Part shown: positions 10,725 to 35,321 of the stretch, piece by piece | Position numbering within the stretch: position 1 is the first letter of the stretch | Layout of the letters: the number at the start of each line of letters is the position of its first letter | NCBI RefSeq assembly: GCF_016859125.1 | Contig: NZ_CP069338.1 | Coordinates: forward strand, 3,560,501-3,624,500 | Length of the DNA stretch: 64,000 bases | DNA from: Archangium violaceum | GTDB taxonomy: Bacteria > Myxococcota > Myxococcia > Myxococcales > Myxococcaceae | Reading direction: 5' to 3' | The notes under the pieces: generated by a model | Told to the model about the DNA's origin: nothing | Seen by the model: the letters and a program-made list of their open reading frames with translations, nothing else | Database searches by the model: none | Program-made: the position numbers and the translations under genes

Positions 10725-10954
10725 GGGCACATGCTGCGCTCCTATGACGGCTTGCAGCATTATTGAGGTTGCCGTGAAGGGCACTACGGTGGGGTTGGGC
10801 AGCCCGAAGCGTGCGACCTTGCCGCGGCGGAAGAGTGCTGGCGCCTTTTCGGGGAACTCCTGTACGCATCGACACGGGCGGCACGTGGTTGTTTCCGGAA
10901 GGAAAAGGTGCGCTGCGCCCGAGGGCTTTCGCTTCGTTGGCTGGGAGGTGGACA

Positions 10955-12486
10955 ATGGTCGTTGAGTCGTCACGGGCACCGTGGGCGGGCCTGCTGATCA
11001 CCATGGCTCTGCTGTCCGTCGGCTGCGCTTCGCTGACGCCACCGCCAAGCCGGGAGATGGACCTGCGCTATACGCCGCTCGAGGTCGTAAGACCTGCGTT
11101 GGCTGAAGGGCCGGGCGAGGAATCTTCGTTCGCCCGCCTCTCCCCGCCAACCTCGCAGCCTGAGCCCGAGGAGCCGGAGCGGCTACGCCGACGCCGGGCT
11201 TCCCGAGAGGTCGTGCCGGGCGCTACGGGAGCTGCGCGGCAGACTGCTCTCGCGACTCACTTGGCGTTTCGTGGTGCCGTTCACGACGTCTCGGGCTCGA
11301 CCCTCCGCATCTCCGGTGAGCTCTCCAGATTGTAGGCCAGCAAGTGGGGCATCGCCGGCAATGCCGCCGGCCTCTTCGTCCGCTACCTCGATTATGGCGA
11401 ACGTCAACTGCGGTGGATTGACGCCGAACTTGCCGCCGCCACCCGGCTTGCCACCTCCGCTTCAGAGCTGGATGACCCGGACATGCAGCTTGCCCTCCTG
11501 CGCCTCGCTGGCCCACGACTCGAGGCTGCCATGCTCGGCTCCATCCTGCTCGCGGCATGGCTCGACTTCCTCAATCTTGTCGATGTGGTGCTCAAACAGG
11601 GTTTTATCAGCGTGGAGACGTTGTTCGTGAGCATGGAGCGCTGGCAGAAGATGCTCGAGCCCTCCATGAGGGCTCTCTCCTCTCTGGAGCGAGGGCATGT
11701 GGAGGCTGTTGCGAACGACATTCTCGCGCTGATGGGCCATCTCTCCGGCGAGTTCAATTCGACCGCTGAGACCATTCGCGTGGCGATGAAGCGCGGTGAG
11801 CAGGCGATGCTGCTGGCGCAGTTCCTTGAGATGGTCACCATGTTATCGGCGATGAAGCTTTCGTTGCCTTCGCTGCCGCCATCCGCCCCCGCCACGCTCG
11901 GCATGAGCCTGATGGTGGGGGGCGACGGCGTGATGATGGGCACGCGAATCGTCGTGTCAGCCGAGTGGATGGATATGATGCGCCGGCTCGTGAGGGCGGG
12001 AGTCATCTCTCTTCCCGCCGTCAGCGCCGCTGTGCGGATTCAGGCCGGTCAGGTGATGATGGCGCAGGCGCACGACGAGTTACCGCAGGGCGTGCGCAAC
12101 GCGCTCGGCGACGGGCCAGAGGTGCGGGGAATGCGTGTGACGGACAGAGCGGGGGCCGGCATGACCGAGCCACCGCGGCACCATGTCCTGCCGCGAGAGT
12201 TCCGTGAGTGGTTCGAGAAGCGCGGCTTTACCGGCGACATGAGCATCGATCAGTTCTGCGTCAGAATGGAGCAGGCACGTCACGAGGCGATTCATGGAGG
12301 TGGCAACTGGCGCCTCGGTCGCACATGGCCCGGCGAATGGAACCAGATGATCATGGAGACCCTGCGTGATGCCGAGACCAAGGCGGGCCGGATGTTGACG
12401 CGGGGCGAGATCCTGAACATCTCGTCGCGGAGAACATGCGGGACTACCGTATTCCGATGAAATTCATCCCTTGGGGAGCGCGATGA
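10955..12486 (+). pseudogene. SitA/DUF2380-type lipoprotein nuclease toxin, disrupted
   Basis: The ATG at 10955 has a good Shine-Dalgarno (GGGAGG) and starts a lipoprotein signal (LLITMALLSVGC, lipid Cys24). The frame is stopped by an in-frame TAG at 11333-11335, then continues in the same frame (SKWGIAGNAAGLFVRY ... LGMSLMVGGDG) into a C-terminal domain with His-rich motifs (HHVLPREFREWFEKRGF and AIHGGGNW) of the DUF2380/TIGR02269 myxobacterial toxin family. Near 12421 a one-base shift replaces the expected ending (AENMRDYRIPMKF...IPWGAR) with a short nonsense tail stopping at 12460. The ancestral frame would end in TGA at 12484-12486, overlapping the ATG of the next gene. Such lipoproteins are delivered between kin by outer-membrane exchange in Myxococcus (known biology); that it applied here is inference. 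The downstream immunity gene is intact. Confidence 0.75.
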
Positions 12487-12953
12487 ACGAGGACCGTTCT
12501 TGGGACGGCAACTGGAAGGTCCGCCTCTATGAGCGGGTCCGAGAGCGTGGTTTTGATTCGCTCACCTCCTTTGCAAAGGCTCGCCCTGCCGTTCCACTGT
12601 ATTTGCTGGCCGAGGAGCTTGGTCCGGACGATGTCGCCGCTGTGCAGGTGTTGAGTGGATTGCTCGCGGAGGCGGAGCGAAGCCATCAGGTCACTCGCTT
12701 TGTGCGCGATGTGCTCGCGCGCGAGCTGTCGCAGAGTGTACCTGATGGCTGGCCGGCCGTACTGGACGATGCCAACCGCTTCAAGGTCGCCAAGGCACTC
12801 GGCCGCTGGACTGCCTACTCCCCAGAAACCCATAAGGTGCGTGTAAAGCAGATCGGCGATGCGCTCATCGCTACACCGCCGCCACCAGGTTGGCGCCCGC
12901 TCGGGCCTGACGACGAGCTGCTGCGTACGCTCCTTCCCGATGAGGAAGTCTGA
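12483..12953 (+). CDS. Putative immunity protein of the SitA-like toxin
   Basis: A 156-residue soluble, charged, mostly helical protein (MNEDRSWDGNWKVRLYERV ... LGRWTAYSPE ... GWRPLGPDDELLRTLLPDEE). No catalytic motif is visible. Its ATG overlaps the ancestral stop of the toxin gene (ATGA), the arrangement expected for a toxin-immunity pair that is co-translated. Proteins of this shape follow DUF2380 toxin genes in other myxobacteria, from memory. Here the toxin is broken while this frame is clean, which fits retention for protection against siblings that still carry the toxin. Confidence 0.6.
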   Translation: MNEDRSWDGNWKVRLYERVRERGFDSLTSFAKARPAVPLYLLAEELGPDDVAAVQVLSGLLAEAERSHQVTRFVRDVLARELSQSVPDGWPAVLDDANRFKVAKALGRWTAYSPETHKVRVKQIGDALIATPPPPGWRPLGPDDELLRTLLPDEEV

Positions 12954-13003
12954 ACTTCACCCCTGGAGAGGGTAGCGAGTTCCAGGGGGCGGTAGGAGGC
13001 GCG

Positions 13004-16807: not shown

Positions 16808-16990
16808 ATGAACCCGTCCAACAACTCGAAGCCCACCAAGTCCCTGAAGAAGCTCGTCCTGAACACGGAGACCGTGCGCGTCCTCACCCAGTCCGAGACG
16901 GCGGCCCCGGGCGTCGGCCGCGATGCCGGCCCCCGTCCGTCCGGCTCCGACTATTGCGGCGACTCCATCTTCCTCGTCTGCGGCTGCTAG
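16808..16990 (+). CDS. Class I lanthipeptide precursor peptide (LanA-like)
   Basis: A 60-residue peptide with a strong ribosome site (GAGGAGA). The leader-like N-terminal half contains KSLKKLVLNTETVRVLTQSE, the amphipathic Leu/Val-rich motif with a Thr-Glu-Thr step that LanB-associated precursors of Gram-negative bacteria use for recognition. A Gly/Ala/Pro-rich linker (residues 32-44) precedes a core ending SGSDYCGDSIFLVCGC. In the last 16 residues there are three Ser (45, 47, 53) and three Cys (50, 58, 60), the right number for three (methyl)lanthionine rings. It heads a plus-strand operon with a LanC-like gene; LanB and an intact LanC are encoded 6 kb away in the convergent operon. No Thr is present in the core, so only Dha-derived lanthionines would form. 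The cleavage site is not clear; PG or GR in the linker are candidates. Confidence 0.75.
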   Translation: MNPSNNSKPTKSLKKLVLNTETVRVLTQSETAAPGVGRDAGPRPSGSDYCGDSIFLVCGC

Positions 16991-17068
16991 TATCGGCCCG
17001 TAGCGAGCGACGTGCCGGCTCACCGTCGGCGGCCATCCCCTTCGCGTGGCTCGTCGCAGAGAAACCGA

Positions 17069-18289
17069 ATGGTCCCCATCGGCGGTGAGCAGTTTCCGGG
17101 TGACGGAGCGTGGCGCCCCCTCCTGGAGGGACAGGCGCGCCAGTCCGCCACCACCCTCCTCCGCTCCCTGGCGGAGGCCCTGCGTTCCCCTTCGAGTCAT
17201 CCGACTCCCTCGCTCGGCAGTGGCTCCGCGGGGGCCGCCCTGTGTCTGGCCTACGTGGGCACCGCGATCGGTGAGGAGCCGCTCGTCGACGACGCCGTCA
17301 CCCTGCTGTCCTCGGCCATCGAGCAGGCGGGCGCGCGCCAGATGTCCCCGGCTTTCGCCGAGGGCCTCGCCGGCGTGGGGTGGGCCATCGAGCACCTGCG
17401 GAAGGAGCTCGGGTGGGGCGACGGGGATGATCCCAACGAGATGCTCGATGACGTGCTCCTGCGGCATGTCTCCCGGGACGCGTGGCTCCAGCCCTGGGGA
17501 CACCTCGAGGGACTGACGGGGGTGGGCGCCTACTTCCTGGAGCGGCTTCCCTCGCCCCGGGCTCGCGCGGGCCTGGAGCGGATCGTCCTGCACCTGCTCG
17601 AGGGGGCCTGGTCCACCCAGGGCCTCGGCCGCACCTGGTGGACGATGCGGCAGCTCCTGCCCGAGCCCCTGCGCTCCCGGCATCGGTTCGGCCACTATGA
17701 CCTGGGCGTCGCTCACGGCGTCCCCGGCATCCTCGGCTTCCTGGGCCAGGTGTCCGCCGCGGGCATCGCCCGGCCGGAGAGCCAGGGGGTGGCTTCCAAG
17801 GCCATGGAGTGGCTCTGGTCGAGGCGCACGTCCGAGGAGCCGTCCCGCTTCCCCGCGTATGACGGCTCGGAGGTGCCCCACCCTCCCGCTCCCGAGGGCT
17901 GGGAGCATGGCGCCATCGGCCTGGGGAGCGCGCTGCTCGTCACCGCGGACGCGCTCGGGGATACGGGGCGGGCCTCCTCGCTGCTGTCCTGGCTCCGCGC
18001 CACGGCGCTCGCGAATACGGAGATCTCGGGCGACGACGTCGGGCTGCGCCGCGGCGCCGCGGGGCTGGGCCACCTCTACAACCGGCTCCACCAGCGGACC
18101 GGAGAGGCGGTCTTCGCCGAACGGGCCCGCGCGTGGCTGCTGCACGCGATGGAGCGGGCCGCACGGCAGACGCGGCTGGGGCTGCTCGATGGGGCAGCCG
18201 GAACGGCGCTGGCGCTCCTGGCGGCCACCTCGTCCCAGGCGCCGGCCTGGGATCGCCTGTTGTTGCTCTCCACTCGAGGCTCACCATGA
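17069..18289 (+). CDS. LanC-like protein lacking zinc ligands (predicted pseudo-cyclase)
   Basis: A 406-residue protein with the alpha/alpha-barrel pattern of LanC cyclases, including AHGVPG (His216). Compared with the intact LanC in the same locus, every other active-site position is changed: the catalytic Asp motif is LEGLTGVG (Glu147), the WCYG zinc Cys is replaced in GWEHG (Glu279), the Arg four residues before it is Pro, and the second zinc pair CHG is GLRRG (Arg327, Arg328). It therefore should not bind zinc or cyclise. A scaffold, chaperone or regulatory subunit is the likely role. ATG 17069 is used; a GTG at 17012 is an alternative. It follows the precursor by 78 bp, and its stop overlaps the next gene (ATGA). 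Confidence 0.8.
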   Translation: MVPIGGEQFPGDGAWRPLLEGQARQSATTLLRSLAEALRSPSSHPTPSLGSGSAGAALCLAYVGTAIGEEPLVDDAVTLLSSAIEQAGARQMSPAFAEGLAGVGWAIEHLRKELGWGDGDDPNEMLDDVLLRHVSRDAWLQPWGHLEGLTGVGAYFLERLPSPRARAGLERIVLHLLEGAWSTQGLGRTWWTMRQLLPEPLRSRHRFGHYDLGVAHGVPGILGFLGQVSAAGIARPESQGVASKAMEWLWSRRTSEEPSRFPAYDGSEVPHPPAPEGWEHGAIGLGSALLVTADALGDTGRASSLLSWLRATALANTEISGDDVGLRRGAAGLGHLYNRLHQRTGEAVFAERARAWLLHAMERAARQTRLGLLDGAAGTALALLAATSSQAPAWDRLLLLSTRGSP

Positions 18290-19260
18290 CTCCCGCGCAG
18301 GACTTCGCGCACCGGGTGGAGGCCTTCCTCGAGAGCCTCCGCCAACAGGACACCCTGGCCATCATCCAGTACGGCAGCTCGCTGCGCCCGGCGGACTTCG
18401 TGCCCGGCCAGAGCGATCTGGATCTCATCGTCATCTCGCACGAGCCGCTGCGGGATGTGGCCAATGATCTCGGCTACAGCTACACCTTCATCCCCCCGCG
18501 CGAGTTCATCGCGAGCATCACCGCCGGGGACATGTTCTGGTTGTCCGCCCTGCAGTCCGGGCAGGTGCGCCATGATCCCCAGGGCTTCCTGCGCAACCTC
18601 CAGGCGCTCATCGCCAGCGGGCTCGACCTGAGGCCCAACCTCACGACGATCCGCAGCTGCGCCGTGCTCATCGGCACCCAGCTCGAATCCGCCATGTCGC
18701 TCTACTTCTCGGGAGGGGAGGGCGCGTCGGCTCGCATCCTTCGCCTGCTCTATTCGGCGGCGAAGGGGATTGGCGGCTACATCGCGATCGCCGCCACCGG
18801 GGAGGATCCCCACGGCTTCGAGGGCATCGCACGCACCCTGGAGGGCTCCTACCCGGAGACCGCCGCGCTCATGCGCACCACCCGCGAGCGCATGCGCCAG
18901 CCCGAGCGTTTCCCGCACCAGCCCCGTCCCCGCACGCACCTCGAGGACGATGCGCTGGGCCGTTGCATCCTCGAGGTCGAGCGCGCCTACATCGAAGGGG
19001 TCGCGCTCGTCCCGGGGCGGCGGATGACCAACACGCTCATCGACGAGTACCAGCGCGGCCCCACGCCCCTGGGGGCCACGTTGTTCGTGCGCATGGACAA
19101 CAACCGGCACACGCACTTCGTGGTCGGCCGCTCCGGGGGCGGCTACTGCCTGTTCGGCCTGTCGGACACGCGCCAGCCCCAGGGCCCCTTCTTCCGCCAG
19201 AACTTCCCCGATCGCCAGGGCCTCGAGAGTGTCCTCGGTCCGGTGGCCCTCCCTTCGTGA
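18286..19260 (+). CDS. Nucleotidyltransferase-fold protein of the lanthipeptide operon
   Basis: A 324-residue cytoplasmic protein. Near the N-terminus it has the polymerase-beta-type nucleotidyltransferase signature: G30-S31 in YGSSLRPADF, then S43-D44-L45-D46 (SDLDLIVIS) with two metal-binding aspartates. The middle is helical and resembles the helical domains that follow such catalytic modules; the C-terminal 80 residues (TPLGATLFVRMDN, HTHFVVGRSGGGYCLFGL) look like an additional beta-rich domain. The third catalytic acidic residue is not assigned. The start overlaps the upstream LanC-like stop by 4 bp, and the carbamoyltransferase follows 18 bp later. It may transfer a nucleotide to the peptide, to a tailoring intermediate or to an antibiotic; the substrate is unknown. 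Uncommon in lanthipeptide clusters. Confidence 0.65.
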   Translation: MTPAQDFAHRVEAFLESLRQQDTLAIIQYGSSLRPADFVPGQSDLDLIVISHEPLRDVANDLGYSYTFIPPREFIASITAGDMFWLSALQSGQVRHDPQGFLRNLQALIASGLDLRPNLTTIRSCAVLIGTQLESAMSLYFSGGEGASARILRLLYSAAKGIGGYIAIAATGEDPHGFEGIARTLEGSYPETAALMRTTRERMRQPERFPHQPRPRTHLEDDALGRCILEVERAYIEGVALVPGRRMTNTLIDEYQRGPTPLGATLFVRMDNNRHTHFVVGRSGGGYCLFGLSDTRQPQGPFFRQNFPDRQGLESVLGPVALPS

Positions 19261-19278
19261 GCAGCAGGAGCACTCGAG

Positions 19279-21261
19279 ATGATCGTCCTCGGTTTCAACC
19301 ACGGTGGTGTCGGTGACGCGGAGACGCCGTTCGGCCATGACGCGGGGGCCGCCCTCGTCATCGGCGGGAAGGTGGTGGCCGCCGCCGAGGAGGAGCGCTT
19401 CGCGCGCGTCAAGCACACCTCCCGCTTCCCCGCCGGAGCCATTACGTACTGCCTGGAGACGGCCGGCATCGGCCTGGAGCAGGTGGATTGCTTCTGCTTC
19501 CCCTGGAACCCGGAGCTGGACCGGCAGAACGTGGCGCGCGCGGACATCGAGCTGTCCTTGATTTTCAACCGTCACAGCCTGCGCTCGCTCGTCCACGCCG
19601 AGCTCTTCGACGGGTTCCGCGCCCACTTCGGCTTCACCGTCCCCGAGCAGCGTCGCCGCCGCGTGCCCCACCACCTGGCCCATGCGGCGAGCACCTTCTT
19701 CTGCTCGCCCTTCGAGCAGGCCGCGTACCTGGTGGTGGATGCATACGGTGAGATGGTCAGCACCTCGTACGGCCGGGGCCGGGACACGCACCTGGAGCCC
19801 ATGGAGCACACGCTGCTGCCGACGAGCATCGGGGTGCTCTACGCGGACGTCACCCGCCTGCTCGGCTTCCACAGCCGCGAGGACGAGTACAAGGTCATGG
19901 GTCTGGCCGCTCATGGCTCCCCGGAGCGCTTCCGCGAGCTGTTCCGCTGCCAGTGGCGCCCCACGTCCACCGGTGTGGAGCAGGTCAGCGACGAGCGCTC
20001 CCGTGCCGCCGTGCTCGAGCTGACCCGCTACCGGCGTCTCCCCCGGACGCCCGTCACCGCCGAGCACCAGGACATCGCCGCCGCGCTGCAGGAGTGTCTG
20101 GAGGAGCAGATGCTCCACCTGGCCCGGGTCGTCCGGGAGCAGACGGGGGAGCGCCACCTGTGCCTCGCGGGAGGTGTCGCCCTCAACAGCACCGCCAACG
20201 GCAAGCTGGCGCGCTCGGGCCTCTTCGAGGGGCTCTTCATCCAGCCCGCCGCCAATGACGCCGGCACCCCGCTCGGAGCGGCGCTCTTCGAGGCCCACCG
20301 GCACAGCGGCCGGCGCAAGGGCTCCTTCTCCGCGTATCTCGGCCCCGCGTTTCCGGAGAGCCGCATCGACGCGGCCTGTGAGCGGCGCAAGGCGGAGCTC
20401 GTCGTCACCCGGCCGGAGGATCTGCTCTCCGAGACCGTGCGCCGGCTGGCCCGGGGGCAGATCCTCGGGTGGTACCAGGGGCGCATGGAGTTCGGGCCGC
20501 GCGCGCTCGGCAACCGCAGCATCCTCGCCGATCCGAGGAAAGCGGGGATGAAGGATCGCATCAACCACGTGGTGAAGCACCGTGAGTCCTTCCGCCCCTT
20601 CGCGCCCGCGGTGCTCGCCGAGCACGCCTCCGAGTACTTCGCCATGGGGCCGGTCGCGGAGTCTCCGTTCATGTTGATGACCGTGCCCGTGAACCCGGAG
20701 CGCCGCGGCTCGCTCGAGGCGACTGTTCATCTGGACGGCACGGCGCGCGTGCAGACCGTCTCCGCCGAGCAGAACCCGCTCTTCTGGCGGTTGCTCCAGC
20801 GCTTCCACGAGGAGACGGGCGTCCCGGCCCTGCTCAACACGTCCTTCAACGTCAATGGCGAGCCCATCGTGTGCACGCCGGAGGACGCCATCGAGAGCTT
20901 CCTGTCCACGGAGCTCGATGCCCTGGTGCTCGGTGACAGGCTCATCGAGCGGCGTGCGTTGAGTCTGGAGGACCTCCTCCCGCTGCGCCCGCGTCTCCAG
21001 GAGGGCGTGCGGCTGCGCACCTCGCTCACGGCTCCGGGCGAAGGGGTGGTGTGGCGCAACACCGTCGTCAGCCGCCGCCATTTCCAGGCCGAGCTCCAGG
21101 AGGATGCCGCGGCCCTGCTGCTCGCATGTGATGGGACGAAGACCGTGGCCGCCCTGCTGGAGGAGCTGGCCTCGGGTGGGGAGGAGCGCTCGCAAGTCGC
21201 GGCGAGCCTCTCCGCGCTCCTCGAACGCTTCCTGCGGCTGCGCCTCATCTGTCTGGAGTGA
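19279..21261 (+). CDS. O-carbamoyltransferase with C-terminal PqqD-like extension
   Basis: A 660-residue enzyme. The N-terminal Kae1-like domain has H20-D21 (GHDAGAALV), HHLAHAAS (131-138) and D154. The YrdC-like C-domain has the hallmark EFGPRALGNRSILADPR (about 404-420), RESFRPFAPAVL and LLNTSFNVNGEPIV. These define the NodU/CmcH carbamoyltransferases, which move a carbamoyl group from carbamoyl phosphate via carbamoyl-AMP to a hydroxyl. Such enzymes usually end near here, but this one has about 85 more residues (about 575-660) with the pattern FQAELQEDAAALLLACDGTK, VAALLEELA and LLERFLRLRL, which resembles the PqqD-type RiPP recognition element. The fusion suggests the acceptor is the leader-bearing peptide. 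The stop overlaps a GTG of the next frame. Confidence 0.8.
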   Translation: MIVLGFNHGGVGDAETPFGHDAGAALVIGGKVVAAAEEERFARVKHTSRFPAGAITYCLETAGIGLEQVDCFCFPWNPELDRQNVARADIELSLIFNRHSLRSLVHAELFDGFRAHFGFTVPEQRRRRVPHHLAHAASTFFCSPFEQAAYLVVDAYGEMVSTSYGRGRDTHLEPMEHTLLPTSIGVLYADVTRLLGFHSREDEYKVMGLAAHGSPERFRELFRCQWRPTSTGVEQVSDERSRAAVLELTRYRRLPRTPVTAEHQDIAAALQECLEEQMLHLARVVREQTGERHLCLAGGVALNSTANGKLARSGLFEGLFIQPAANDAGTPLGAALFEAHRHSGRRKGSFSAYLGPAFPESRIDAACERRKAELVVTRPEDLLSETVRRLARGQILGWYQGRMEFGPRALGNRSILADPRKAGMKDRINHVVKHRESFRPFAPAVLAEHASEYFAMGPVAESPFMLMTVPVNPERRGSLEATVHLDGTARVQTVSAEQNPLFWRLLQRFHEETGVPALLNTSFNVNGEPIVCTPEDAIESFLSTELDALVLGDRLIERRALSLEDLLPLRPRLQEGVRLRTSLTAPGEGVVWRNTVVSRRHFQAELQEDAAALLLACDGTKTVAALLEELASGGEERSQVAASLSALLERFLRLRLICLE

Positions 21262-21284
21262 GCCGACGCCAGGACCGGGTTCCC

Positions 21285-22226
21285 ATGATCGATCTCCTCG
21301 ACACCATCCGCGGCCTGGTGGAGCCGCTTGCCCACGGTGAATACGTGGCGGACTGGCAGGCACGCGCGGCGCGGCTGTCGGCGCTCGGCGATTACTATTC
21401 GCTGCGCATGCGCGACAACCCGTTCCTCGAGTCGGAGGACGCCGGCCTCGGCGGACCCTTCGGCTCACCCGCGCACCTGCGCTCCCAGATGCACGCCCAC
21501 TTCGACGAGGCGATGGCGGCCCGCTCCGTCTCCTATGGCTTCGCCCTCGGGCCACTGACCGGGACCGATCGGGAGCTGTTCGCTCGCGCGTACCACCAGG
21601 TCGACTCCGTCGAGAAGATGGCCATGAGCGCGATCGCCCATGCCCTCTACCGGCTCCAGCCCCCGCTTCCGGTGGCCCTCCAGCTCTGCGGCGTCCTCTA
21701 CGACGAGGCCCTCCACCTCACGGCCCTGAGCTCGCTGCTGGCCATCCCTCAGGAGAAGGAGCCGTGGATCACCCCCAAGCGCGAGCCCTTCTGGCACGAG
21801 CTCCGGCGGACGGAGGATCTCCTCTCGTATGTCTTCCTCCAGCACTGCCTGTCGGAAGCGGAGGGCAGCATCGCGGCGGCGGAGAAGTGGCGGCAGCTCC
21901 AGCAAGCCGGCGCGGGCCCCACCGCGACGCGGGTGGCCCATCGCATCTTCGTCGAGGAGACCGGACACGCGCTCACTGGCTATATGGTGTTGAAGCAGCT
22001 CGACGAGTCCTTGCCCGCGAGCGTCTTTCACCGGCTCGTGGAGCGCTATCTGGAGAGCGAGCCGCTCGTGGAAGCCTCCACGCGCAAGGGACAGCGGCAG
22101 CGGTTCGCCCTGCGACTGGCGGAGCTGTACATCACCCGGAGGAGCCTCACGCAGGTGCACGCGGAGCTGATGCGATGCGCACGGGCGGCGGCGCTCCCTC
22201 TCCCTCTGGGAGAGGGCGGGGGGTGA
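21285..22226 (+). CDS. Ferritin-like diiron protein (DUF455-like layout)
   Basis: A 313-residue helical protein with the four-helix diiron-carboxylate spacing: E110 (DSVEKMAMSA), E141-x-x-H144 (YDEALHLTAL), E191/E193 (LSEAEGSIAAAE), and E225-x-x-H228 (VEETGHALTGY). The order and spacing resemble DUF455 ferritin-like proteins and related oxygenases. It is the last gene of the precursor operon and is probably a tailoring oxidase acting on the peptide; an iron-storage role is less likely in this context. An in-frame GTG at 21258 overlaps the carbamoyltransferase stop (GTGA) and is an alternative start that would give tight coupling. The final ten codons (ALPLPLGEGGG region) lie inside an intergenic hairpin repeat, which supplies the stop codon. 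Confidence 0.65.
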   Translation: MIDLLDTIRGLVEPLAHGEYVADWQARAARLSALGDYYSLRMRDNPFLESEDAGLGGPFGSPAHLRSQMHAHFDEAMAARSVSYGFALGPLTGTDRELFARAYHQVDSVEKMAMSAIAHALYRLQPPLPVALQLCGVLYDEALHLTALSSLLAIPQEKEPWITPKREPFWHELRRTEDLLSYVFLQHCLSEAEGSIAAAEKWRQLQQAGAGPTATRVAHRIFVEETGHALTGYMVLKQLDESLPASVFHRLVERYLESEPLVEASTRKGQRQRFALRLAELYITRRSLTQVHAELMRCARAAALPLPLGEGGG

Positions 22227-22231
22227 GGGTA
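22195..22231 (+). repeat. REP-like hairpin repeat, left copy
   Basis: CCCTCTCCC, a 3-base loop, GGGAGAGGG (22196-22216), then a G-rich tail ending GGTGAGGGTA. The same element occurs inverted at 22332. It overlaps the last codons of the ferritin-like gene. It could serve as a terminator for the plus-strand operon. Confidence 0.7.
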
Positions 22232-22331
22232 TTCGACTCCGTGTTCCTCACCTGGCTTCAATCGCGGTACGTCCGTGTCCCATCGGTGCCCGCTGTCTCG
22301 GGTTCCCGAGTGGGGACACACTTCAGGCAGA

Positions 22332-22367
22332 TACCCTCACCCTAGCCCTCTCCCGGAGGGAGAGGGG
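22332..22367 (-). repeat. REP-like hairpin repeat, right copy (inverted)
   Basis: TACCCTCACCC, then CCCTCTCCC, a 3-base loop and GGGAGAGGG (22346-22366). It is the reverse complement of the element at 22195 apart from a few bases. It lies 24 bp from the stop of the minus-strand LanC gene, so the pair flanks the gap between two convergent operons. Confidence 0.7.
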
Positions 22368-22390
22368 ACATCCACGGATTCAACCCGGGC

Positions 22391-23626
22391 TCAACGCGCC
22401 GAGGCCAGGAACAACCGATCCCACTCTGGCTCCACCGGACCGAGGGCCGCGAGCAGCGCCAGTCCAACCCCCGAGGCACCACTGAGCAGCCCGGGAGAGG
22501 CAATCCACGACTCCCCGCTCGCGTCCTGTTGCCAGACGCGGAACCCGGCGAAGCCCTCGCCCTCGTGTCGGAGCTCCAGCGTGTGCACGAGCCAGGCGCG
22601 CGAGGCCTCACGGAACACAGCTTCCCCCGAGGCGCTGTACAAGCGATGAAAGAGATGAGCGTTTCCAGCGGCGCCGTGACACAGGCCGGCGTCCCGGACT
22701 CCCGACTCCCCGGAAGGCCGCTCCGCGGCGCGTCGAGCGGTGCGCAGGGCTTCATCTTCCCAGTCGCTCCTCCCCACGCTCCGAGCGGCCTGGAGCAGCG
22801 CCACCGACAGTCCGAGATCTCCGTAGCACCAGGCGATGCGCGAGGGGCGCCGCACGGGGGCGCCCGCGGAGATGACCGTTCCGAAGCTGGCCCGAGCGTC
22901 CCGCGAATCGCGCTGCGCCAGGAGCCACCGCACCGCGCCCTCCAGGAGCATCCGAGCCCGCTCCTCGGCGACGCCATGCACGCACGCCCGAGCGAGCAGC
23001 AGGATGACTCCTGGAACGCCATGGGCCACGCCCAGGTTGTAGTAACCCTGGGGGTAGAGCGCCCGCTGCCACTCGGGCAACAGCTCCGGGGGCGTGTACC
23101 AGGAGAGGCCCTCCGTCCGGGACACCGCCAGCTCCTCCAACCGCAGCACCACCTGCTCGAGGATGGCCCGCCCTCGAGGGGAGCCGATGCGCTCGCAGGC
23201 ATACACGCCATACCCCACCAGGCCGTCGATCAGCTCATAGGCGCCGCGCCAGGGGCTCCGCCCGACATGCGTGAGCAGCAACTCATCCACGTCGGCGGTG
23301 GGCTCCTCGTCCTCGGACAAGCCCAGCTCCCGGCTCAGGTGGAGCAGTGCCCAGGCCACACCGGTGAAGCCTCCGAACAGGGAGGGCGGCTGCTGGGATT
23401 CGGCCAACAGCTCCATCGCTCGGGACATCAGCTCCTGGGCCCGCTCCGCCGAGGGCTCGTGCTGGAACGTCCGGTGGAAGTAGGCGTGGAACACGGCCAT
23501 TCCCGCCAGTCCCGAGGACAGGCCGGGGAGCTCCCGGGTGACACCGCTCAGGGCGGTGGAGATCTCCTCGACGGTCCGCCGTACCTGGAGCGCCAGGGCC
23601 TCGTCGCTCGAGAGCAGTGGTGTCAT
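22391..23626 (-). CDS. lanC: Lanthionine synthetase C family protein (LanC cyclase)
   Basis: A 411-residue zinc-dependent cyclase that adds Cys thiols to dehydroamino acids to close (methyl)lanthionine rings. All catalytic residues expected from NisC are present: Asp134 (LIDGLVGYG), His202 (AHGVPG), Arg263 and the zinc ligand Cys267 (SRIAWCYGDLG), and Cys316-His317 (GLCHGAAGNAHL). The ATG at 23626 overlaps the LanB stop (ATGA), so dehydratase and cyclase are co-translated. It is the functional partner for the precursor at 16808; the second LanC-like protein in the locus lacks these residues. Cytoplasmic, acting in complex with LanB. Confidence 0.92.
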   Translation of the reverse strand: MTPLLSSDEALALQVRRTVEEISTALSGVTRELPGLSSGLAGMAVFHAYFHRTFQHEPSAERAQELMSRAMELLAESQQPPSLFGGFTGVAWALLHLSRELGLSEDEEPTADVDELLLTHVGRSPWRGAYELIDGLVGYGVYACERIGSPRGRAILEQVVLRLEELAVSRTEGLSWYTPPELLPEWQRALYPQGYYNLGVAHGVPGVILLLARACVHGVAEERARMLLEGAVRWLLAQRDSRDARASFGTVISAGAPVRRPSRIAWCYGDLGLSVALLQAARSVGRSDWEDEALRTARRAAERPSGESGVRDAGLCHGAAGNAHLFHRLYSASGEAVFREASRAWLVHTLELRHEGEGFAGFRVWQQDASGESWIASPGLLSGASGVGLALLAALGPVEPEWDRLFLASAR

Positions 23627-26600
23627 GGGAGCCTCCGGGCTCGGGCCGCTTGCGATTCGTACAGGCGGGAGAGGAAATCGTAGAGCACCAGCTCCTGCGC
23701 ACGGTGAGCGGCGCGCAGCATCCGGTTGACGTGCATGTGCATGTAGCTGCCCGCGAGCAGTTCGAGGGGCACGCGAAGGTGGCCCCGCTGCTCGAGCGCC
23801 TTCAACTCCGACACCACGGGCGCCAGGGCTCGCGAGCGGTGCTCCAGCACTCCGAACCCCTGCGCGAGTGGATGACCGGCCGGCGCGAGCAACAGCTCCT
23901 CCAGCGAGCGCCGCTCCTCGCGGTAACGCGCCGAGAGCTGCGCCCCGAGCGTCTTGTCCAGACGGTGCTCGTGAGCCATCAACGCACGCGCCTGACGCAC
24001 CACCCGGAGCCTTGCCTCGAGCTCCAACCCGAGCTCCACCAGCAACCGGTGGCACCCATACAGCGCGAGCCGCCACCGCGCGTCCGCCCCTTCTTCTCCG
24101 CCCGCGAGCATCGGCATGAGCGCCAGCACGGCCTCGCTGTCATGGTGGAAGAGCCGCTCGGCCAGCTCCACGCCCTCGTCCCCGCCGTAGCGCTCCACCT
24201 CCCGCTCGTACGTGTCCAGCACCAACCGCCGGACGAGCCCCTCGCGTGTCAGGGACTCCACCCGCGAGGACAGCTCCGGTAGCACCTCGCCCAGAAGCCG
24301 AGCGGGCTCGCCCAGGAAGCGCAGGCGCACGTGCCAGTCCGGGTCACCGTAACGGAGGAAGAACCAGCGCCCGGTTGCGCCCGAGTCCTTCACCTCCTCG
24401 ATGAAGGGCGCGAGGTGCTCGCGCAGCAGCACATCCGCGCTGGCGGTGCCCGTGTACAGCTTCGCGTAGAGCCACGCCGAGCCGGGGGCGAACGAGCGAG
24501 GCTTCGGGACGGAGGTGCTCGAGGACTGTGGCGCCACGGTGGGCGACGGCTCGGGCGGGTTGCGCAGGAAGGGAACGACGAGCTCGTGCACGAAGGCGCC
24601 CTCGGGACCCTGGACGGCCAGGGCCTCGGGCCCGGGGAGAAGCTCCCGCAGCACCGCGAGCTCCCGCCCCTTCACGAGTTGGACGAAGGTCTCCGCGCAG
24701 AGCACGTTCTCCAGGTCCAGCGGCAGGACATTGTCCCCGTCCACCAGGGCCACATGGCGAGGGAGGCCTCGCCGCTCCACCAGCGTGCGCAGGCCCTCCA
24801 CGAGCGCGGCTCCCGCCAGCGTCCCCAGCGACTGCAACTCCCGTGTGTCGAGCCGCCAACGCGCCCGGGCCAGCACCACCCGGCCACAACGCACCCGCGG
24901 CAGGAAGGGGGATTGCTCCAGGACGCCCCACCTCCACCCCAATCGCTCGACCACCCCCTGGGCCTGGAGCGCGCACAGGAAGCGGTACACGCCCAGACTC
25001 CTCAGCCCGTAGTTGTGAGCGCTCGTCAGGCGGGGAATCACCTCACGGCCCAGCCGCGCGCTGCGCAGCACCACCCGCTCTCCCTCCACCCGGAGGCGGA
25101 GATCGGCCAGCGGGAGCTGTGACTCGCGCGGCGCGCCCGAGTTCCCCAGGAAGGCAATCTCCTGCTGGCGGAGCACCGGCCGGCACAGGAGGTTGCCGAT
25201 CCGCCCCTCGGGCAGATGGACGATCTCCGCGAAGACGGCACCCGGCCGGAGCGCCTCCTCCGCGCGCAGGTGCGCCTCCACGTGGCGATGCAGCTCCGGA
25301 TCCGCGTGGCAGAACCGCCCGAGCAATCGCATCCCCGAGGGGCCGGCGACTCCCTCCAGGGCCACCGAATAGTCACCCTCCGCGAGCCGCTCGGGCGTCC
25401 CGATGAGGGTGGCCATGACCGAGAGCGAGTCGGGCAGCCGCGGCGGCGTCCCGGGAAGGAGGGTGTCGAGCTCCTCGGGGGAGAGCTGGAGCTCCAGGGC
25501 CCCGGCGCGGCGCGCCTCGTCCACCTTGCGCAGGAGCAGTCCGGCCACCGCGGGGCGGACACTCACGGTGGGCTCGGGCGAGGGGAAGCGCAGACCTTCC
25601 AGGAGCGGCGCTCCCTCCGCCAGACGTTCATCCGCGTTGCCGAATCCAATCCCGGACTCCTCGTCCAGGGCCTCCAACAAGGGCACCTCACGCCCCTCGT
25701 AGCGCGAGCGGAAGGCGTCGCGGAAGCGAGCCAGTTCCTCGTCTTGCGGCAGGACGAGCCGGCGCAGCACCTCCACACCGCGCCACAGCTCGGCCGCCAC
25801 GCGCCGGCCCAGGGTGGCTCCGGGCGCGGGCTTCACCATGTCCACCTGGAAGAGCCTGGGCAGCTCCACCGGGGCTGGCAGGCCCTCCAACCCTCGAGCC
25901 ACGTCCCGGTAGCGCGAGGGAGGCACCCCGAGCCCCGCCGCATCGATTTCCGCCAGCACGTCGCGCGCGGCCTCCAACCTCGCCGCCGCGCCACCGCCCG
26001 GGGGAAGCCCGCGCAGCAGGGAGATCATCGCGTGGATGGGCTCCTCACCCGTCACGCGCGGAGGCAGGTCCGATTCGAGGAGCTGGGCCTCGATGAGCTG
26101 GTCGATGAACCCGGCGGCCTCCTCGGCGGAGATGTCCTCCGACACCAGGGCGGCGGCCAGCTCGCCGGGCTTCGCGCCGGGACGTGCGCGCTCGAGCGTC
26201 TCCAGCAGATAATCGGAGGGTTCCACGGCCACGAGGTGGTACGCGCGTGCCTTGCCCTCCAGATGGGCGCGTGCGTAACGCAGACGCCCGGCCGCGCGGT
26301 ACAGACTGGAACCCGGCCGCCACGGCAGCGCGGCCCGAAGCTCCGGCTCCCGAGCCAACCCCTCGGCGAGCGCGAAGAGGTAGTCCATGTCCAGCCGCGT
26401 GTGTCGGCGGTAGGCCTCGCGGCCAGCGAGCCGCAGCCGGGTCTCCTCGCCGAGCAGGCCCATGGAGCAGCCGGCGAACAAGCCGAACGGCGTGGGACGC
26501 GAGCACAACCGCGACAGGTAGCGCACCAGCGCGCGCTCCACCTTCTGGCCCCGCTCGCCCTCCGGCGCCGACAGCCAGTACGGCAGACTCGCTTCCAGGT

Positions 26601-26826
26601 CCGGAGAGGCGATCCACAGCGCGTCGCGTACCTCCGGGCGCTCGAGCAGGACACGGAGCCGCTCCCGCACGCGTTCCCGGTCCCTCTGCACGGCGGCCCC
26701 GCTCTCCGAGGACCCGGAGCGCCAGGCCTCCAAGCCCTGGCCCCAGTCCAGCCACTCGGCGAGCGGGAGGAGCGGTGTGCGCAGCGCGAAGAAGCCGTCG
26801 GGATGGTGGGAGTGCGAATCGCTCAC
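23623..26826 (-). CDS. lanB: Class I lantibiotic dehydratase (LanB), full length
   Basis: A 1067-residue dehydratase. The N-terminal glutamylation domain (about 60-700; for example PFGLFAGCSMGLL, ARAHLEGKARAYHL, NLLCRPVLRQQEIAFLGNSG) uses glutamyl-tRNA to activate Ser/Thr. The C-terminal elimination (SpaB_C) domain (about 780-1050; AWLYAKLYTGTASADVLL, WFFLRYGDPDWHVRLRF, REVERYGGDEGVELAERLF) removes glutamate to give dehydro residues. Both halves are in one chain, unlike split LanBs of thiopeptides, so a true lanthipeptide product is expected. The start is GTG (26826); no better ATG is nearby. It is co-translated with LanC, and the operon converges on the precursor operon. No precursor-like ORF was found upstream on this strand. 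Confidence 0.92.
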   Translation of the reverse strand: MSDSHSHHPDGFFALRTPLLPLAEWLDWGQGLEAWRSGSSESGAAVQRDRERVRERLRVLLERPEVRDALWIASPDLEASLPYWLSAPEGERGQKVERALVRYLSRLCSRPTPFGLFAGCSMGLLGEETRLRLAGREAYRRHTRLDMDYLFALAEGLAREPELRAALPWRPGSSLYRAAGRLRYARAHLEGKARAYHLVAVEPSDYLLETLERARPGAKPGELAAALVSEDISAEEAAGFIDQLIEAQLLESDLPPRVTGEEPIHAMISLLRGLPPGGGAAARLEAARDVLAEIDAAGLGVPPSRYRDVARGLEGLPAPVELPRLFQVDMVKPAPGATLGRRVAAELWRGVEVLRRLVLPQDEELARFRDAFRSRYEGREVPLLEALDEESGIGFGNADERLAEGAPLLEGLRFPSPEPTVSVRPAVAGLLLRKVDEARRAGALELQLSPEELDTLLPGTPPRLPDSLSVMATLIGTPERLAEGDYSVALEGVAGPSGMRLLGRFCHADPELHRHVEAHLRAEEALRPGAVFAEIVHLPEGRIGNLLCRPVLRQQEIAFLGNSGAPRESQLPLADLRLRVEGERVVLRSARLGREVIPRLTSAHNYGLRSLGVYRFLCALQAQGVVERLGWRWGVLEQSPFLPRVRCGRVVLARARWRLDTRELQSLGTLAGAALVEGLRTLVERRGLPRHVALVDGDNVLPLDLENVLCAETFVQLVKGRELAVLRELLPGPEALAVQGPEGAFVHELVVPFLRNPPEPSPTVAPQSSSTSVPKPRSFAPGSAWLYAKLYTGTASADVLLREHLAPFIEEVKDSGATGRWFFLRYGDPDWHVRLRFLGEPARLLGEVLPELSSRVESLTREGLVRRLVLDTYEREVERYGGDEGVELAERLFHHDSEAVLALMPMLAGGEEGADARWRLALYGCHRLLVELGLELEARLRVVRQARALMAHEHRLDKTLGAQLSARYREERRSLEELLLAPAGHPLAQGFGVLEHRSRALAPVVSELKALEQRGHLRVPLELLAGSYMHMHVNRMLRAAHRAQELVLYDFLSRLYESQAARARRLP

Positions 26827-27025: not shown

Positions 27026-27973
27026 ATGACCTATCGCCATCTCGTCGACCCCGCGCTCGCGCCGATGCTCGAGAATGACTTCCCGACCCTCTCAGCGGCC
27101 AACCTGAAGGATGTCCGGGCCGCGGTGGTCCACCTGTTCGATTCGGGGCCCAGCCCGGCGATTCGCTCCGTGGTGCGGGTGCGCACCCGCGACGGAAGCC
27201 CGGATGTCCGTCTGATCATCCACACCCCTCACGGTGGTGGTACGAATCGACCGGCCATCTTCTTCATCCATGGCGGAGGCATGGTGCTCGGCGATGCGGC
27301 GATGGGCGAGAGCGTCCATGGAGCGCTCGCACTGCGGCATGAGGCCGTCGTCGTCTCCGTCGACTATCGCCTCGCGCCGGAGACGCCCTTTCCGGGCGCC
27401 ATTGAAGATTGCTTCGCGGGCCTGAAGTGGCTGTTCGCCAATGCATCCGAACTCGGCGTCGACCCGTCCCGGGTGGTGCTGATGGGGGAGAGTGCCGGAG
27501 GGGGCCTGGCCGCGTCGCTCGCCCAGCTCTCGCGAGACGAGGGAGGCCCGCGGGCCCGCGCGCAGATCCTCATCTACCCGATGCTCGATCACCGCACGGG
27601 GAGCAAGGACGACCCGCACCCGAATCCCGTTACGGGCGAGTTCTCCTGGTCGCGCGAGAACAACCGCTTCGGCTGGAATGCGCTCCGCGGCGACTACGTC
27701 CCGACCGACGCGCGAGCAGGCCATTTCTCCGCGGCGCTCGGGCGGGACCTCTCCAACCTGCCGCCCGCCTTCATCGCGACGGGCTCGCTCGACCTCTTCT
27801 TCGAGGAGATACTCGAGTACTCGCGGCGGCTCTGCCGGGCGGGTGTGCCCGTCGAGCTCCACAGCTACCCCGGCGCCATCCATGGCTTCAACTCGGTGCC
27901 TGGCGCGTGGATGACGGAGAGCTTCAATCGGGACCTCGACGGCGCCTTGTCACGTGCTCTCGGCAAGAGGTGA
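27026..27973 (+). CDS. Alpha/beta hydrolase, hormone-sensitive-lipase type esterase
   Basis: A 315-residue esterase. The oxyanion-hole motif HGGG (IFFIHGGGMVLGD) is followed by the nucleophile motif GESAGGG, an Asp in TGSLDLFFEE, and the catalytic His in PGAIHGFNSVP: the full hormone-sensitive-lipase (family IV) triad. The ATG at 27026 has TGGAG upstream. It has no signal peptide, so it acts in the cytoplasm on small esters. It lies 200 bp from the divergent LanB gene; a role in the lanthipeptide pathway is possible but unsupported. Its 3' end overlaps the convergent CHAT protease gene by 24 bp. Confidence 0.85.
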   Translation: MTYRHLVDPALAPMLENDFPTLSAANLKDVRAAVVHLFDSGPSPAIRSVVRVRTRDGSPDVRLIIHTPHGGGTNRPAIFFIHGGGMVLGDAAMGESVHGALALRHEAVVVSVDYRLAPETPFPGAIEDCFAGLKWLFANASELGVDPSRVVLMGESAGGGLAASLAQLSRDEGGPRARAQILIYPMLDHRTGSKDDPHPNPVTGEFSWSRENNRFGWNALRGDYVPTDARAGHFSAALGRDLSNLPPAFIATGSLDLFFEEILEYSRRLCRAGVPVELHSYPGAIHGFNSVPGAWMTESFNRDLDGALSRALGKR

Positions 27974-30205
27974 TGAGGGCGCGGCCTCCTGCTCGAGGTG
28001 AAGGGCGGACAAGGCGAAGGGCAGGTACACCAGCCCGAGTGGGTTGAAGTCGTGTTGCAGGATGCCGAGACGCGCCTCGCGAATGGCTGCCCCCAGCGGC
28101 AGCTTGCGCCGCAGGAATGCATCGAGGAACCGGCTGCCGAAGGCAACCGCCAGCGGCTCGAAGATGGTGACCTCGGTCCCGATGACTCCCGCGGCTCCGG
28201 CCCGCTCCACGAAGCCCGACACCAGCTCGATGGCCTGTTCGGGCTCGAGCTCGGTGGTGTGGCAGCCGTTGATGAAGACCAGCGGATGGCGCGCTGGTTC
28301 GCTCCATTGGATGCCATGGGTCCTCAGGTTGTCCCGGAAGATGTACGGGTCCTCGAGTGGGCCGACCTGGAGGTAGGGCGCGCGAGTCGTGGGGTCGATC
28401 CCCCCATGGCAGTAGAAGTACACGAGGTGGCCCGGCTGGCGCAGCAGCGTGAGGGTCTGCTTGCGGCTGCGGGCCACCTGGATGGGTGCGACGCCGGACA
28501 GGACCCGCAGCCGCGCGACATGGTTGTCGCGCAACACGAAGTTGGGATCCTCGGAGACGGCGATGAGCATTCCGGGAGTCTCACGGAAGCGCAGCACGCC
28601 GGGCAGGTCGAACTGCCCCTGCTCGCCCTGGGTCGCCATGCCGAAGGGCAGCGACAGGGTGTGCCGGAAGCCCCAGAAGCCGCTCGGGCAGACCACCTCC
28701 AGGTCTCCCCGGTGGGGACAGTCACCCTGGAAGCAGGCGCTCGTCTCCAGCGGTTCGCTGGCCGCCGAGGCGCGGACGAACGCATCACACAGGGCGAGCT
28801 CCTTCACCGCTGTATCGAGGGGATGGTCGTAGAAGATCGACAGGGGGACCAGGTGGCGGGCCCCCTGCCGCAGGGCGAGCTGGATCTGCCCGGGGCGGCG
28901 CATCCGCTCGCGCAGCGCGTCCGCTCCATTCGCCCCCTGGCCGAGCCGCTCGGCCAGCAGATCATAGAGGCGATAGCCAATGCGTGCCATCCGCACGAGG
29001 TCCTCGCGCAACCGAGACACCGATTGCGTGCCCTGGTAGCGGTAGGGGGGAGGTGGGGAGACCGCCTCGTAACGCTCCGTGCTTCCCCAGGAGGCCTGCC
29101 GGAAGGCCTGTCGCGACAGGGCAATCATCTCCTGGAGCATGGGGTCATCGAGGTGCACCGAGGCGTGGTAGTCACCGCCTCCCACGAAGCGGAAGCCATG
29201 GGTGCCCTGATCGCCGTCGTTGAGCAGCACACTGAGCGTGGCGGAGCCGAGCTCCCGCAGGTGGGAGGGATGGAGCGTCCGGGAGAGGGCGTAGTCCACC
29301 CGGGAGCGCAACGCACCGCTCTGTCGCTGGGGCTGCTTCGCCACGGTGAGCACCACGTCACGTGACTGCACCAGGAGTCCTTCGTGGTGGATGTTGCAGC
29401 GCAGCCGGTAGGAGCCGGGCTCCTGGGGCGTACGGACCGGGAAGAACAGCCGCCGGGCCAGCAGCTCCCGCGTCGCGAGTGGCGGCGGTACCCAGGCCGG
29501 GCACTCCACCACGATGCGGCCATCGCCCTCGATGCGCAGCACGCCCCGCTCCGCACCCGGCTGCAGCGCGAGCCCTCCCGGGTTGCTGAACAAGAGCACC
29601 TGGAGCCGTGCTCCGGCCGGCAGGTCCTCGGGGAGGGACACGGGCTGGACCTCGATGGACCCCTCGACGAGTGCACCCACCTCCAACCAGAAGCAATACG
29701 CGTGGTCGGTGACGAGGCACTGGTCCTGGCTCAGCGGGCTCTCGGGCCGTTCGGCCTCACTGAGGCCGGTGTTCACGAGCCGGAAGGGAGGCTCCGCGAA
29801 GGAGAAGTCCATGGGCGGCTGCGGGGGCGGGTTGGTGAAGCGCGCCACCGGCACCGCCTTGGGACCCGTCACCCCAGGGAGCGGAGAGCGGAACTCCCCG
29901 TCCTTCTCCCTCGGGGCACTTCTCCACGAGTTGGCCACCCGCTCGATGTCCGCCTTCCTCGAGGGCCTGCTCTGCTGGAGATGGCTCCAGAAGAACAGGT
30001 TGATGTGCCCCTCGCGCTCCAGGCTGACGATGACTCGCGTGAGCTCGGATGTGGAAGGGCGCCGGTATCCCTCCCTCCAATCCCGGAGGGAGGGTCTTCC
30101 CAGGGAGCGGAGGAGGTCATCCAGGAAGTCCCTCAACGCCTCTCCTGGGAACAGGGACTCGAGCAGCAGCGCCAGTTCCAGGTGCCGCTTGTCTGGGTTC
30201 GCCAT
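27950..30205 (-). CDS. CHAT-domain caspase-like protease, partner of gasdermin
   Basis: A 751-residue protein. Residues 7-85 form a helical death-like/effector-associated domain (LELALLLESLFPGEALRDFL ... SHLQQSRPSRK), followed by a beta-rich middle region (about 150-310). The C-terminal half is a CHAT protease with the catalytic His about 600 (YFYCHGG) and Cys about 648 (FINGCHTTEL). Bacterial gasdermins are activated by such neighbouring proteases, which cut off a short inhibitory tail (known from Runella and myxobacterial systems). The gasdermin gene ends 45 bp upstream on the same strand, so the pair is one operon. The effector-associated domain is the likely sensor interface; the trigger, probably phage infection, is inferred. 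The 3' end overlaps the convergent esterase gene. Confidence 0.85.
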   Translation of the reverse strand: MANPDKRHLELALLLESLFPGEALRDFLDDLLRSLGRPSLRDWREGYRRPSTSELTRVIVSLEREGHINLFFWSHLQQSRPSRKADIERVANSWRSAPREKDGEFRSPLPGVTGPKAVPVARFTNPPPQPPMDFSFAEPPFRLVNTGLSEAERPESPLSQDQCLVTDHAYCFWLEVGALVEGSIEVQPVSLPEDLPAGARLQVLLFSNPGGLALQPGAERGVLRIEGDGRIVVECPAWVPPPLATRELLARRLFFPVRTPQEPGSYRLRCNIHHEGLLVQSRDVVLTVAKQPQRQSGALRSRVDYALSRTLHPSHLRELGSATLSVLLNDGDQGTHGFRFVGGGDYHASVHLDDPMLQEMIALSRQAFRQASWGSTERYEAVSPPPPYRYQGTQSVSRLREDLVRMARIGYRLYDLLAERLGQGANGADALRERMRRPGQIQLALRQGARHLVPLSIFYDHPLDTAVKELALCDAFVRASAASEPLETSACFQGDCPHRGDLEVVCPSGFWGFRHTLSLPFGMATQGEQGQFDLPGVLRFRETPGMLIAVSEDPNFVLRDNHVARLRVLSGVAPIQVARSRKQTLTLLRQPGHLVYFYCHGGIDPTTRAPYLQVGPLEDPYIFRDNLRTHGIQWSEPARHPLVFINGCHTTELEPEQAIELVSGFVERAGAAGVIGTEVTIFEPLAVAFGSRFLDAFLRRKLPLGAAIREARLGILQHDFNPLGLVYLPFALSALHLEQEAAPSSPLAEST

Positions 30206-30249
30206 GGTCGGTCCTTCTCCGCTCCAGCCTCACTCAGCCCGTGTCAGCG

Positions 30250-31050
30250 TTAGATGCCCTCGAGCTCCAGCAGGCCGCCCTCGTCGAGGAGGGTGGAATC
30301 GCCCGGCACGACACCGGTGGAGCTGTTGATCGCCATCGCGACGGCACCGGGCTGGGCGGTGAACAGGGTGATGTCCCCGTCCTTCACGCCCACCTCGAAG
30401 CACTTGAAGCCGAACACGAGCTGCTTGTCGCCCTTGTAGGTCACCGTGTTCTGCTGGCCCGCCGAGGCCTCCACCTTCAGCTTGCCGCCGACGACGTCCT
30501 GGAGCTGCGGCACATCGAGCTGGACGTCGCCGCCGCCCGACTTCTCGGCCGAGACGGTGAACTCGTTCGACTTGATGACCTCGGTAATCACATACAACCG
30601 GCCCTTGCCGAGCACGTACTGCTTCAGTACCGGGTTGTCGGCGTCCACCTCGGCCTTCTTGAGGAACTGCCCCACGGCCAGCGGCTCGACGGAGTCCGCG
30701 AGGACGTTGCTGAACTCGAAGCGCACCTTGCGCGCCTGTTGGTATTGGGCCTCGATGCCGGCCCCGGCGCCGAACTGCGCCAGGATGCCCTTGAGGATGT
30801 TGATTCCGATGCTCAGCGACAGGTTGTCCGTCTTCTGTCCGTTGATACCCGCGGCGGCCTGGTCGCGGGTGGTGACCGGGGGATCGGCGGGCGGCCGGGT
30901 GATGAGCTTCTCGAGAGAACCGAGGTACTCCACGGTCCCGTTCTGACGCCCCAGCAGGTGCAGCGGCTGGATGTTCTCACGCGGGAGCCGGACGACGTTG
31001 TAGCCGAGACGCTTGAGATAGGTGGTAGCGGGATCGGTGCACAAACCCAT
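30250..31050 (-). CDS. Bacterial gasdermin (bGSDM), pore-forming death effector
   Basis: A 266-residue protein with the bacterial gasdermin N-terminus: MGLC with Cys4, the residue that is palmitoylated in characterised homologues, then YLKRLGYNVVRLPRENIQPL and HLLGRQNG. The body is beta-rich, as expected for the pore-forming fold. The last 20 or so residues (GVVPGDSTLLDEGGLLELEG) form the short autoinhibitory tail, and the protease cut probably falls just before or within it. After cleavage the protein oligomerises in the inner membrane and kills the cell, which aborts phage spread. It is followed by a CHAT protease gene, the typical activator. Assignment is from the N-terminal signature plus gene neighbourhood; bGSDM structures from the related genus Vitiosangium are known in the literature. 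Confidence 0.85.
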   Translation of the reverse strand: MGLCTDPATTYLKRLGYNVVRLPRENIQPLHLLGRQNGTVEYLGSLEKLITRPPADPPVTTRDQAAAGINGQKTDNLSLSIGINILKGILAQFGAGAGIEAQYQQARKVRFEFSNVLADSVEPLAVGQFLKKAEVDADNPVLKQYVLGKGRLYVITEVIKSNEFTVSAEKSGGGDVQLDVPQLQDVVGGKLKVEASAGQQNTVTYKGDKQLVFGFKCFEVGVKDGDITLFTAQPGAVAMAINSSTGVVPGDSTLLDEGGLLELEGI

Positions 31051-35099: not shown

Positions 35100-35321
35100 G
35101 ATGGAGAGTCCAGGGTTGATTCCGTGTTTCACGGAAGTGGGTGGCTACCCCCTGGAGCAGAAAATCCAGCCGGTGGTTACAGCGGGAAGGGTGACAGTTC
35201 TGTGAATGGCCGGGCCGGGCGCTCGTGCATGACCTGGAAGGTGTTGCCGAGATGTCACTGGCCGTCACGGGTTGTATTTCGTCGCTTCTCGAGTCATCTA
35301 TGGGGAAAAGAGCTGGAGGCG

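Follow-up and report, generated by a model that had tools for sequence, protein, structure and literature searches.

An unusual class I lanthipeptide locus in Archangium violaceum with candidate genes for oxidation, carbamoylation and nucleotidylation

Carbamoyltransferases are described as exceedingly rare in the pathways of ribosomally synthesized and post-translationally modified peptides (RiPPs), where crocagin and std exemplify them (PMC13174530); the precedents for carbamoylation are StdF of std (PMC13174530) and CgnI of crocagin (PMC11285071). A 64,000-base stretch of the Archangium violaceum genome (positions 3560501-3624500 of a single-contig sequence of 12.68 Mb; hereafter the window) places such an enzyme in another RiPP setting, among seven genes in two operons: on the plus strand those for a lanthipeptide precursor (LanA), a LanC-like protein (LanC2), a nucleotidyltransferase (NTase), the carbamoyltransferase (CarbT) and a ferritin-like protein, and on the minus strand those for a dehydratase (LanB) and a cyclase (LanC1). 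The likeness to std and crocagin is that of a carbamoyltransferase in a RiPP pathway: StdF is fused to an S8/S53 peptidase, has YcaO-TfuA and MNIO partners and targets Lys, and the available text on it names no LanB or LanC (PMC13174530). We lean, with modest confidence, towards reading the locus as a class I lanthipeptide pathway that includes a rare tailoring operon, in which diiron oxidation and O-carbamoylation would be joined by nucleotidylation, either as further tailoring or as self-protection.

The original prediction knew of no described lanthipeptide locus with this combination, and a full-text literature search, with most subscription journals outside its reach, likewise found no lanthipeptide paper with both a carbamoyltransferase and a nucleotidyltransferase, none with a ferritin-like diiron protein, and no carbamoylated lanthipeptide among the four papers that mention both terms (PMC13174530, PMC10880069, PMC11285071 and PMC8365161); in the available text of PMC10880069, the mention of carbamoylation concerns viomycin-type nonribosomal peptide synthetase (NRPS) chemistry. 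If the proposed pathway is true, lanthipeptides would gain two modifications, carbamoylation and nucleotidylation, not described for them within the reach of these searches.

For comparison, 195 same-phylum genomes were searched for LanB; 53 had matches (E 0.001 or better), weak or partial ones among them, and 20 of the listed places, about 19 kb each and from 19 genomes, were taken as a set. One of these (L046, G000:C1:9164810-9168016) comes from the window's own genome: it is another class I LanB locus, equipped with a LanC and a Cys-rich precursor-like open reading frame (ORF) of its own. The clusters are alike in having LanB, one LanC (19 of the 20 by tblastn, none being found in L053) and an ORF with a common leader pattern (20 of 20); a second LanC, as in the window, was found in none. 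LanC lies upstream of LanB on the same strand in 17, and downstream, in the manner of the window, in one. A transporter ORF with a C39 peptidase lies nearby in seven by motif search, with none in the window.

A pattern loosened from the window leader (L-x-L-[NKDRSGQH]-x-x-T-[LVI], then 20-90 residues including Cys) picks out a single small ORF per locus in all 20, mostly reading [KR]-L-x-L-x-x-E-T (the ORF in L065 has no Met start within 30 residues); the same search found none in ten carbamoyltransferase loci without LanB, and its one match in the window is the 60-residue LanA peptide. Judged by sequence, this agreement is not chance. With a class-typical leader and a core containing Ser and Cys (Table 1), LanA has the make-up of a class I precursor, as originally predicted. 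LanB carries both dehydratase domains above the Pfam cut-off (PF04738, PF14028), shows 51-57% identity to its counterparts in the comparison loci, and aligns with solved lantibiotic dehydratases, among them 5ehk (MibB). The plus-strand operon begins with the only leader-pattern peptide found in the window, so LanB and LanC1 appear tied to that operon. The sequence evidence supports a locus of the class I lanthipeptide kind whose gene set is unusual.

The description of the enzyme set as unusual is upheld by the comparison loci, in none of which tblastn found the NTase, CarbT or the ferritin-like protein. By profile search, the NTase and the ferritin-like protein each occur in one of the 195 genomes, the window's own (0 of 194 others), and in a collection of 5.8 billion proteins the foreign homologues found number nine and seven, respectively, in a search that scored about 8000 candidates sharing most words and may miss distant homologues. 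Each protein is listed there with its longest contig: a 25387-base contig is given for NTase P0001, ferritin-like P0011 and LanC2 P0019 (82-89% identity), and a 12643-base contig for NTase P0002 and LanC2 P0020. This suggests that LanC2 and NTase genes share two metagenome contigs, one of them also holding a ferritin-like gene; since equal sizes among so few matches are unlikely by chance, the three genes probably travel together. For CarbT, companionship with LanB elsewhere was considered and rejected: both are matched in 20 of the 195 genomes, and they lie within 20 kb only in the window's genome, three others having them 0.4-2.6 Mb apart on one contig and 16 on different contigs, with the proviso that fragmented assemblies could hide linkage and that some LanB matches are weak.

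A protein search with LanC2, of whose 826 matches the best 120 were listed, returned the window's own copy, four proteins at 47-82% identity and 115 at 41% or less. The five subfamily members were aligned with LanC1 and seven of the 115 distant relatives, positions being placed by alignment to NisC with the ligand numbering in the available text of PMC10604976. At the sites of the zinc ligands C284/C330/H331, the subfamily has E/R/R (twice, including the window's own), E/S/G, E/A/R and E/C/R, so the full set is kept in none of the five: C284 is Glu and H331 is lost throughout, while C330 is kept in one (P0022). All eight other proteins aligned have C/C/H. At NisC Asp141, the five have Gly, the distant relatives Asp and LanC1 Glu; His212 is kept in LanC1 and in three of the five, the window's included, and is Arg in the other two. 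LanC2 had been called degenerate, and its zinc ligands are indeed lost, but the loss is common to all five subfamily members, and by this alignment LanC2 is not a case of simple decay. A zinc-less LanC as a usual trait of these clusters was also rejected: in 18 of the 20 comparison loci the LanC reads WC/CH, and in L059 WC/CC. The CC variant of the ligands can also bind zinc. In L059 (5262-6617) the LanC with WC...CC is near LanB, with a luciferase-like ORF (by eye) between them.

The closest solved relatives of CarbT are GdmN (E 3e-117) and NovN. By eye, CarbT H131, H135, D154, D327 and H20 align with GdmN H133, H137, D156, D333 and H27, so that the four metal ligands and the general base His, as given in the available account of GdmN, are all kept (5 of 5), in Kae1-like and YrdC-like domains; together with its PF02543 and PF16861 matches, this fits the predicted O-carbamoyltransferase. 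The GdmN alignment spans residues 17-652 of 660, that with NovN ending at 575, and the GdmN subclade is described as carrying about 100 additional residues at the C-terminus, a domain that forms the homodimer (PMC9633730); because the alignment runs so far into a relative with such a domain, the CarbT tail is best read, on sequence, as a GdmN-like C-terminal dimerisation domain. The tail had been noted as PqqD-like. That resemblance is real, if under the Pfam cut-off (22.6 bits for the tail alone against 23.4, and 16.4 for the whole protein), but as proof of leader binding it was rejected, since GdmN and relatives in two loci beside NRPS genes (L086, L087) share the region. As a counterpoint, the CarbT tail looks more PqqD-like than theirs, Pfam calling no PqqD in the full-length L086 and L087 proteins and a weak match in CarbT. 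RiPP recognition element domains fused to PF02543 carbamoyltransferases were described in 2025 (PMC12710340); should those enzymes be of the GdmN type, the tail may still bind the leader. CarbT shares the C-terminal region of GdmN, the metal ligands and the base with class III carbamoyltransferases of the GdmN/NovN type; the members known from the available account modify ansamycins, concanamycin or novobiocin (PMC9633730), whereas CarbT sits in a lanthipeptide locus. In L086 (1830-7176), two GdmN-like carbamoyltransferases stand beside the NRPS gene, with one gene for an acyl-CoA dehydrogenase-domain protein between them.

The NTase has no Pfam match up to E 0.1, and Pfam, NCBIfam and PADLOC all leave its family without an assignment above threshold. 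It has a GS-x(n)-DxD motif in an MNT-like fold, with G30, S31, D44 and D46 invariant in all ten sequences (the window's and nine homologues), though the structural model has a predicted local distance difference test score (pLDDT) below 50 at parts of the motif. Position 65, a guessed third-carboxylate site, is D/E in four of the ten (P0006-P0009) and S/S/V/H/R/H in the window and P0001-P0005. The model resembles HEPN domains, HalB and aminoglycoside nucleotidyltransferases; HalB and the aminoglycoside enzymes, which combine MNT with a HEPN-like helical domain, are about 12-16% identical to the NTase, and unlike them it has an extra C-terminal alpha/beta part. It falls far under the cut-off of the NCBIfam HalB model (13.1 against 190 bits), and PADLOC gives no match. 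When 84,980 species genomes (the own genome possibly excluded) were scanned with a pattern, four matches appeared, of 30-45 residues only, and none was found in viral contigs and plasmids. For this unassigned family, the adjacent precursor peptide is a first candidate substrate.

For the ferritin-like protein there is again no Pfam match up to E 0.1, but E119, E150xxH153, E200/E202 and E234xxH237 are invariant in eight of eight sequences, giving a full diiron ligand set of two ExxH motifs and further Glu ligands in a helical bundle. The model (pLDDT 86) resembles the ferritin-like diiron oxygenases aldehyde-deformylating oxygenase, R2lox and VlmB, with a best Foldseek E of only 0.025, and the family is small, one of its seven foreign members carrying a precomputed PF04305. 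We infer, from the model, a predicted diiron oxygenase.

The genes are identified by sequence; the substrates, the chemistry and the order of the tailoring steps are inferred. In the proposed pathway, LanB would dehydrate Ser/Thr of the LanA core, and LanC1 would close thioether rings to Cys50, Cys58 and Cys60. LanC2, as a non-catalytic LanC, could hold the peptide and present it to the tailoring enzymes, of which the diiron protein would oxidise it, most simply by hydroxylation, and CarbT, using carbamoyl phosphate and ATP, would carbamoylate a hydroxyl (Ser, Thr, Tyr49 or a newly made one). The NTase might add a nucleotide that either belongs to the product or lets the producer hold it in an inactive state within the cell. 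Leader removal and export presumably depend on genes elsewhere in the genome. The most specific form of this proposal is a class I lanthipeptide hydroxylated by the diiron enzyme and with GdmN-type O-carbamoylation, for which a conserved zinc-free LanC serves as the scaffold on which a new NTase family nucleotidylates the peptide, for pro-drug-like self-protection or as product; taken as a whole, it is tentative and rather doubtful. A LanC subfamily that has lost its zinc site and apparently stays beside one partner enzyme offers a testable case for LanC-fold substrate-holding scaffolds.

Several points weigh against the lanthipeptide tailoring pathway. The linkage is deduced from equal contig sizes; LanB and LanC1 are not shown on the 25387- and 12643-base contigs; and for the remaining homologues (seven of the NTase, six of the ferritin-like protein and two of LanC2) no contig size recurs across sets, many of their contigs being short, but those of 18962 (NTase) and 10024, 8613 and 7122 bases (ferritin-like) not. 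Confidence in the NTase model is middling (pLDDT 75), and the third carboxylate was not identified in the ten-sequence alignment, so that activity is not assured. For CarbT, the available account has the GdmN/NovN subclade acting on small molecules (PMC9633730), and the relatives matching its tail (L086 and L087, in two other genomes) adjoin NRPS genes with condensation and AMP-binding domains. These last points, with the resemblance of the NTase to small-molecule nucleotidyltransferases, are what would be expected if the plus-strand enzymes made or decorated a separate small molecule, LanA, LanB and LanC1 being mere neighbours or attaching that molecule to the peptide. We consider this rather improbable: LanA heads the operon, LanC2 overlaps the NTase gene, and the two apparently share two further contigs. 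Another possibility, somewhat unlikely in our judgement, is that tailoring proper falls to CarbT and the diiron enzyme, the NTase being an immunity gene that inactivates the finished peptide in the producer as aminoglycoside and lincosamide nucleotidyltransferases do.

Two further explanations concern LanC2. The class III enzyme ThurKC likewise has a LanC domain without zinc ligands and, in the available text, cyclises without them (PMC10604976), so zinc loss in LanC2 is no proof of lost activity; LanC2, in which the window copy keeps the catalytic His, could be a metal-independent cyclase like class III LanKC, forming one ring or a labionin-like link. The differences make this decidedly improbable: the ligand positions read S/F/D in ThurKC and E/R/R in LanC2, Pfam finds the LanC domain alone in what is a stand-alone protein, and the subfamily has replaced Asp141 by Gly in every member and His212 by Arg in two of five. 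Could the cluster instead be decaying, with LanC2, and perhaps the NTase, as functionless relics? The lost zinc site and the failure to find a third NTase carboxylate would fit, as would the flanks: an empty-site comparison found no synteny among the matches listed in five same-genus genomes, so that the locus boundary is not shown. This seems scarcely probable at all, since none of the seven reading frames is broken and contigs of equal size are given for homologues of LanC2, the NTase and the ferritin-like protein at 82-89% identity, as though the set were kept together.

The genes are laid out much as originally predicted, with all seven found by ORF and Pfam analysis where they had been placed. 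The plus-strand operon (16808-22226) is tightly packed, and the LanB-LanC1 operon (22391-26826) converges on it with 164 bases between. Overlaps of 4 bases join LanC2 to NTase, LanB to LanC1 and, if the GTG start is used, CarbT to the ferritin-like gene; in the first two pairs they suggest coupled translation. NTase and CarbT are 18 bases apart. A promoter scan found none, and terminator-like sites numbered 4 against 2.1 expected. The noted lack of a protease or exporter gene in the locus held for the genes scanned (20 protein queries), the genome's four peptidase-C39 sites all lying beyond the window; an M16-like protein (33018-35132) was rejected as leader peptidase, the HxxEH motif not being found.

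Table 1. Genes of the locus, in window coordinates (GC3, G+C at third codon positions)
Feature	Length	Coordinates	Strand	Characteristics
LanA precursor peptide	60 aa	16808-16990	+	leader KSLKKLVLNTETVRVL; Cys50/58/60; Ser45/47/53; GC3 0.95
LanC2, LanC-like without zinc ligands	406 aa	17069-18289	+	PF05147 E 1e-20
NTase (nucleotidyltransferase), rare family	324 aa	18286-19260	+	GS-x12-DxD motif; MNT-like and HEPN-like helical domains, C-terminal alpha/beta part
CarbT, GdmN-type class III carbamoyltransferase with C-terminal domain	660 aa	19279-21261	+	PF02543 2.7e-51; PF16861 6e-73
Ferritin-like diiron protein	322 aa (GTG 21258) or 313 aa (ATG 21285)	21258/21285-22226	+	conserved ligand set, model
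LanC1, zinc-type lanthionine cyclase	411 aa	22391-23626	-	PF05147 3.1e-40
LanB dehydratase, full-length, N- and C-terminal domains	1067 aa	23623-26826	-	PF04738 3.8e-158; PF14028 3.5e-66

Directly past the LanB operon, on the minus strand (27953-31050), lie a gene for a CHAT-domain protein (PF12770) and then a bacterial gasdermin gene (PADLOC bGSDM, E 4e-86), likely a gasdermin-protease defence pair. Further on there is an APH-type phosphotransferase-like protein (PF01636; 37510-38328, minus strand). On the other side of the locus, the stretch at about 10760-12970 has dozens of scattered matches, at about 71-82% identity, in the own genome as well as in each of the five same-genus genomes.

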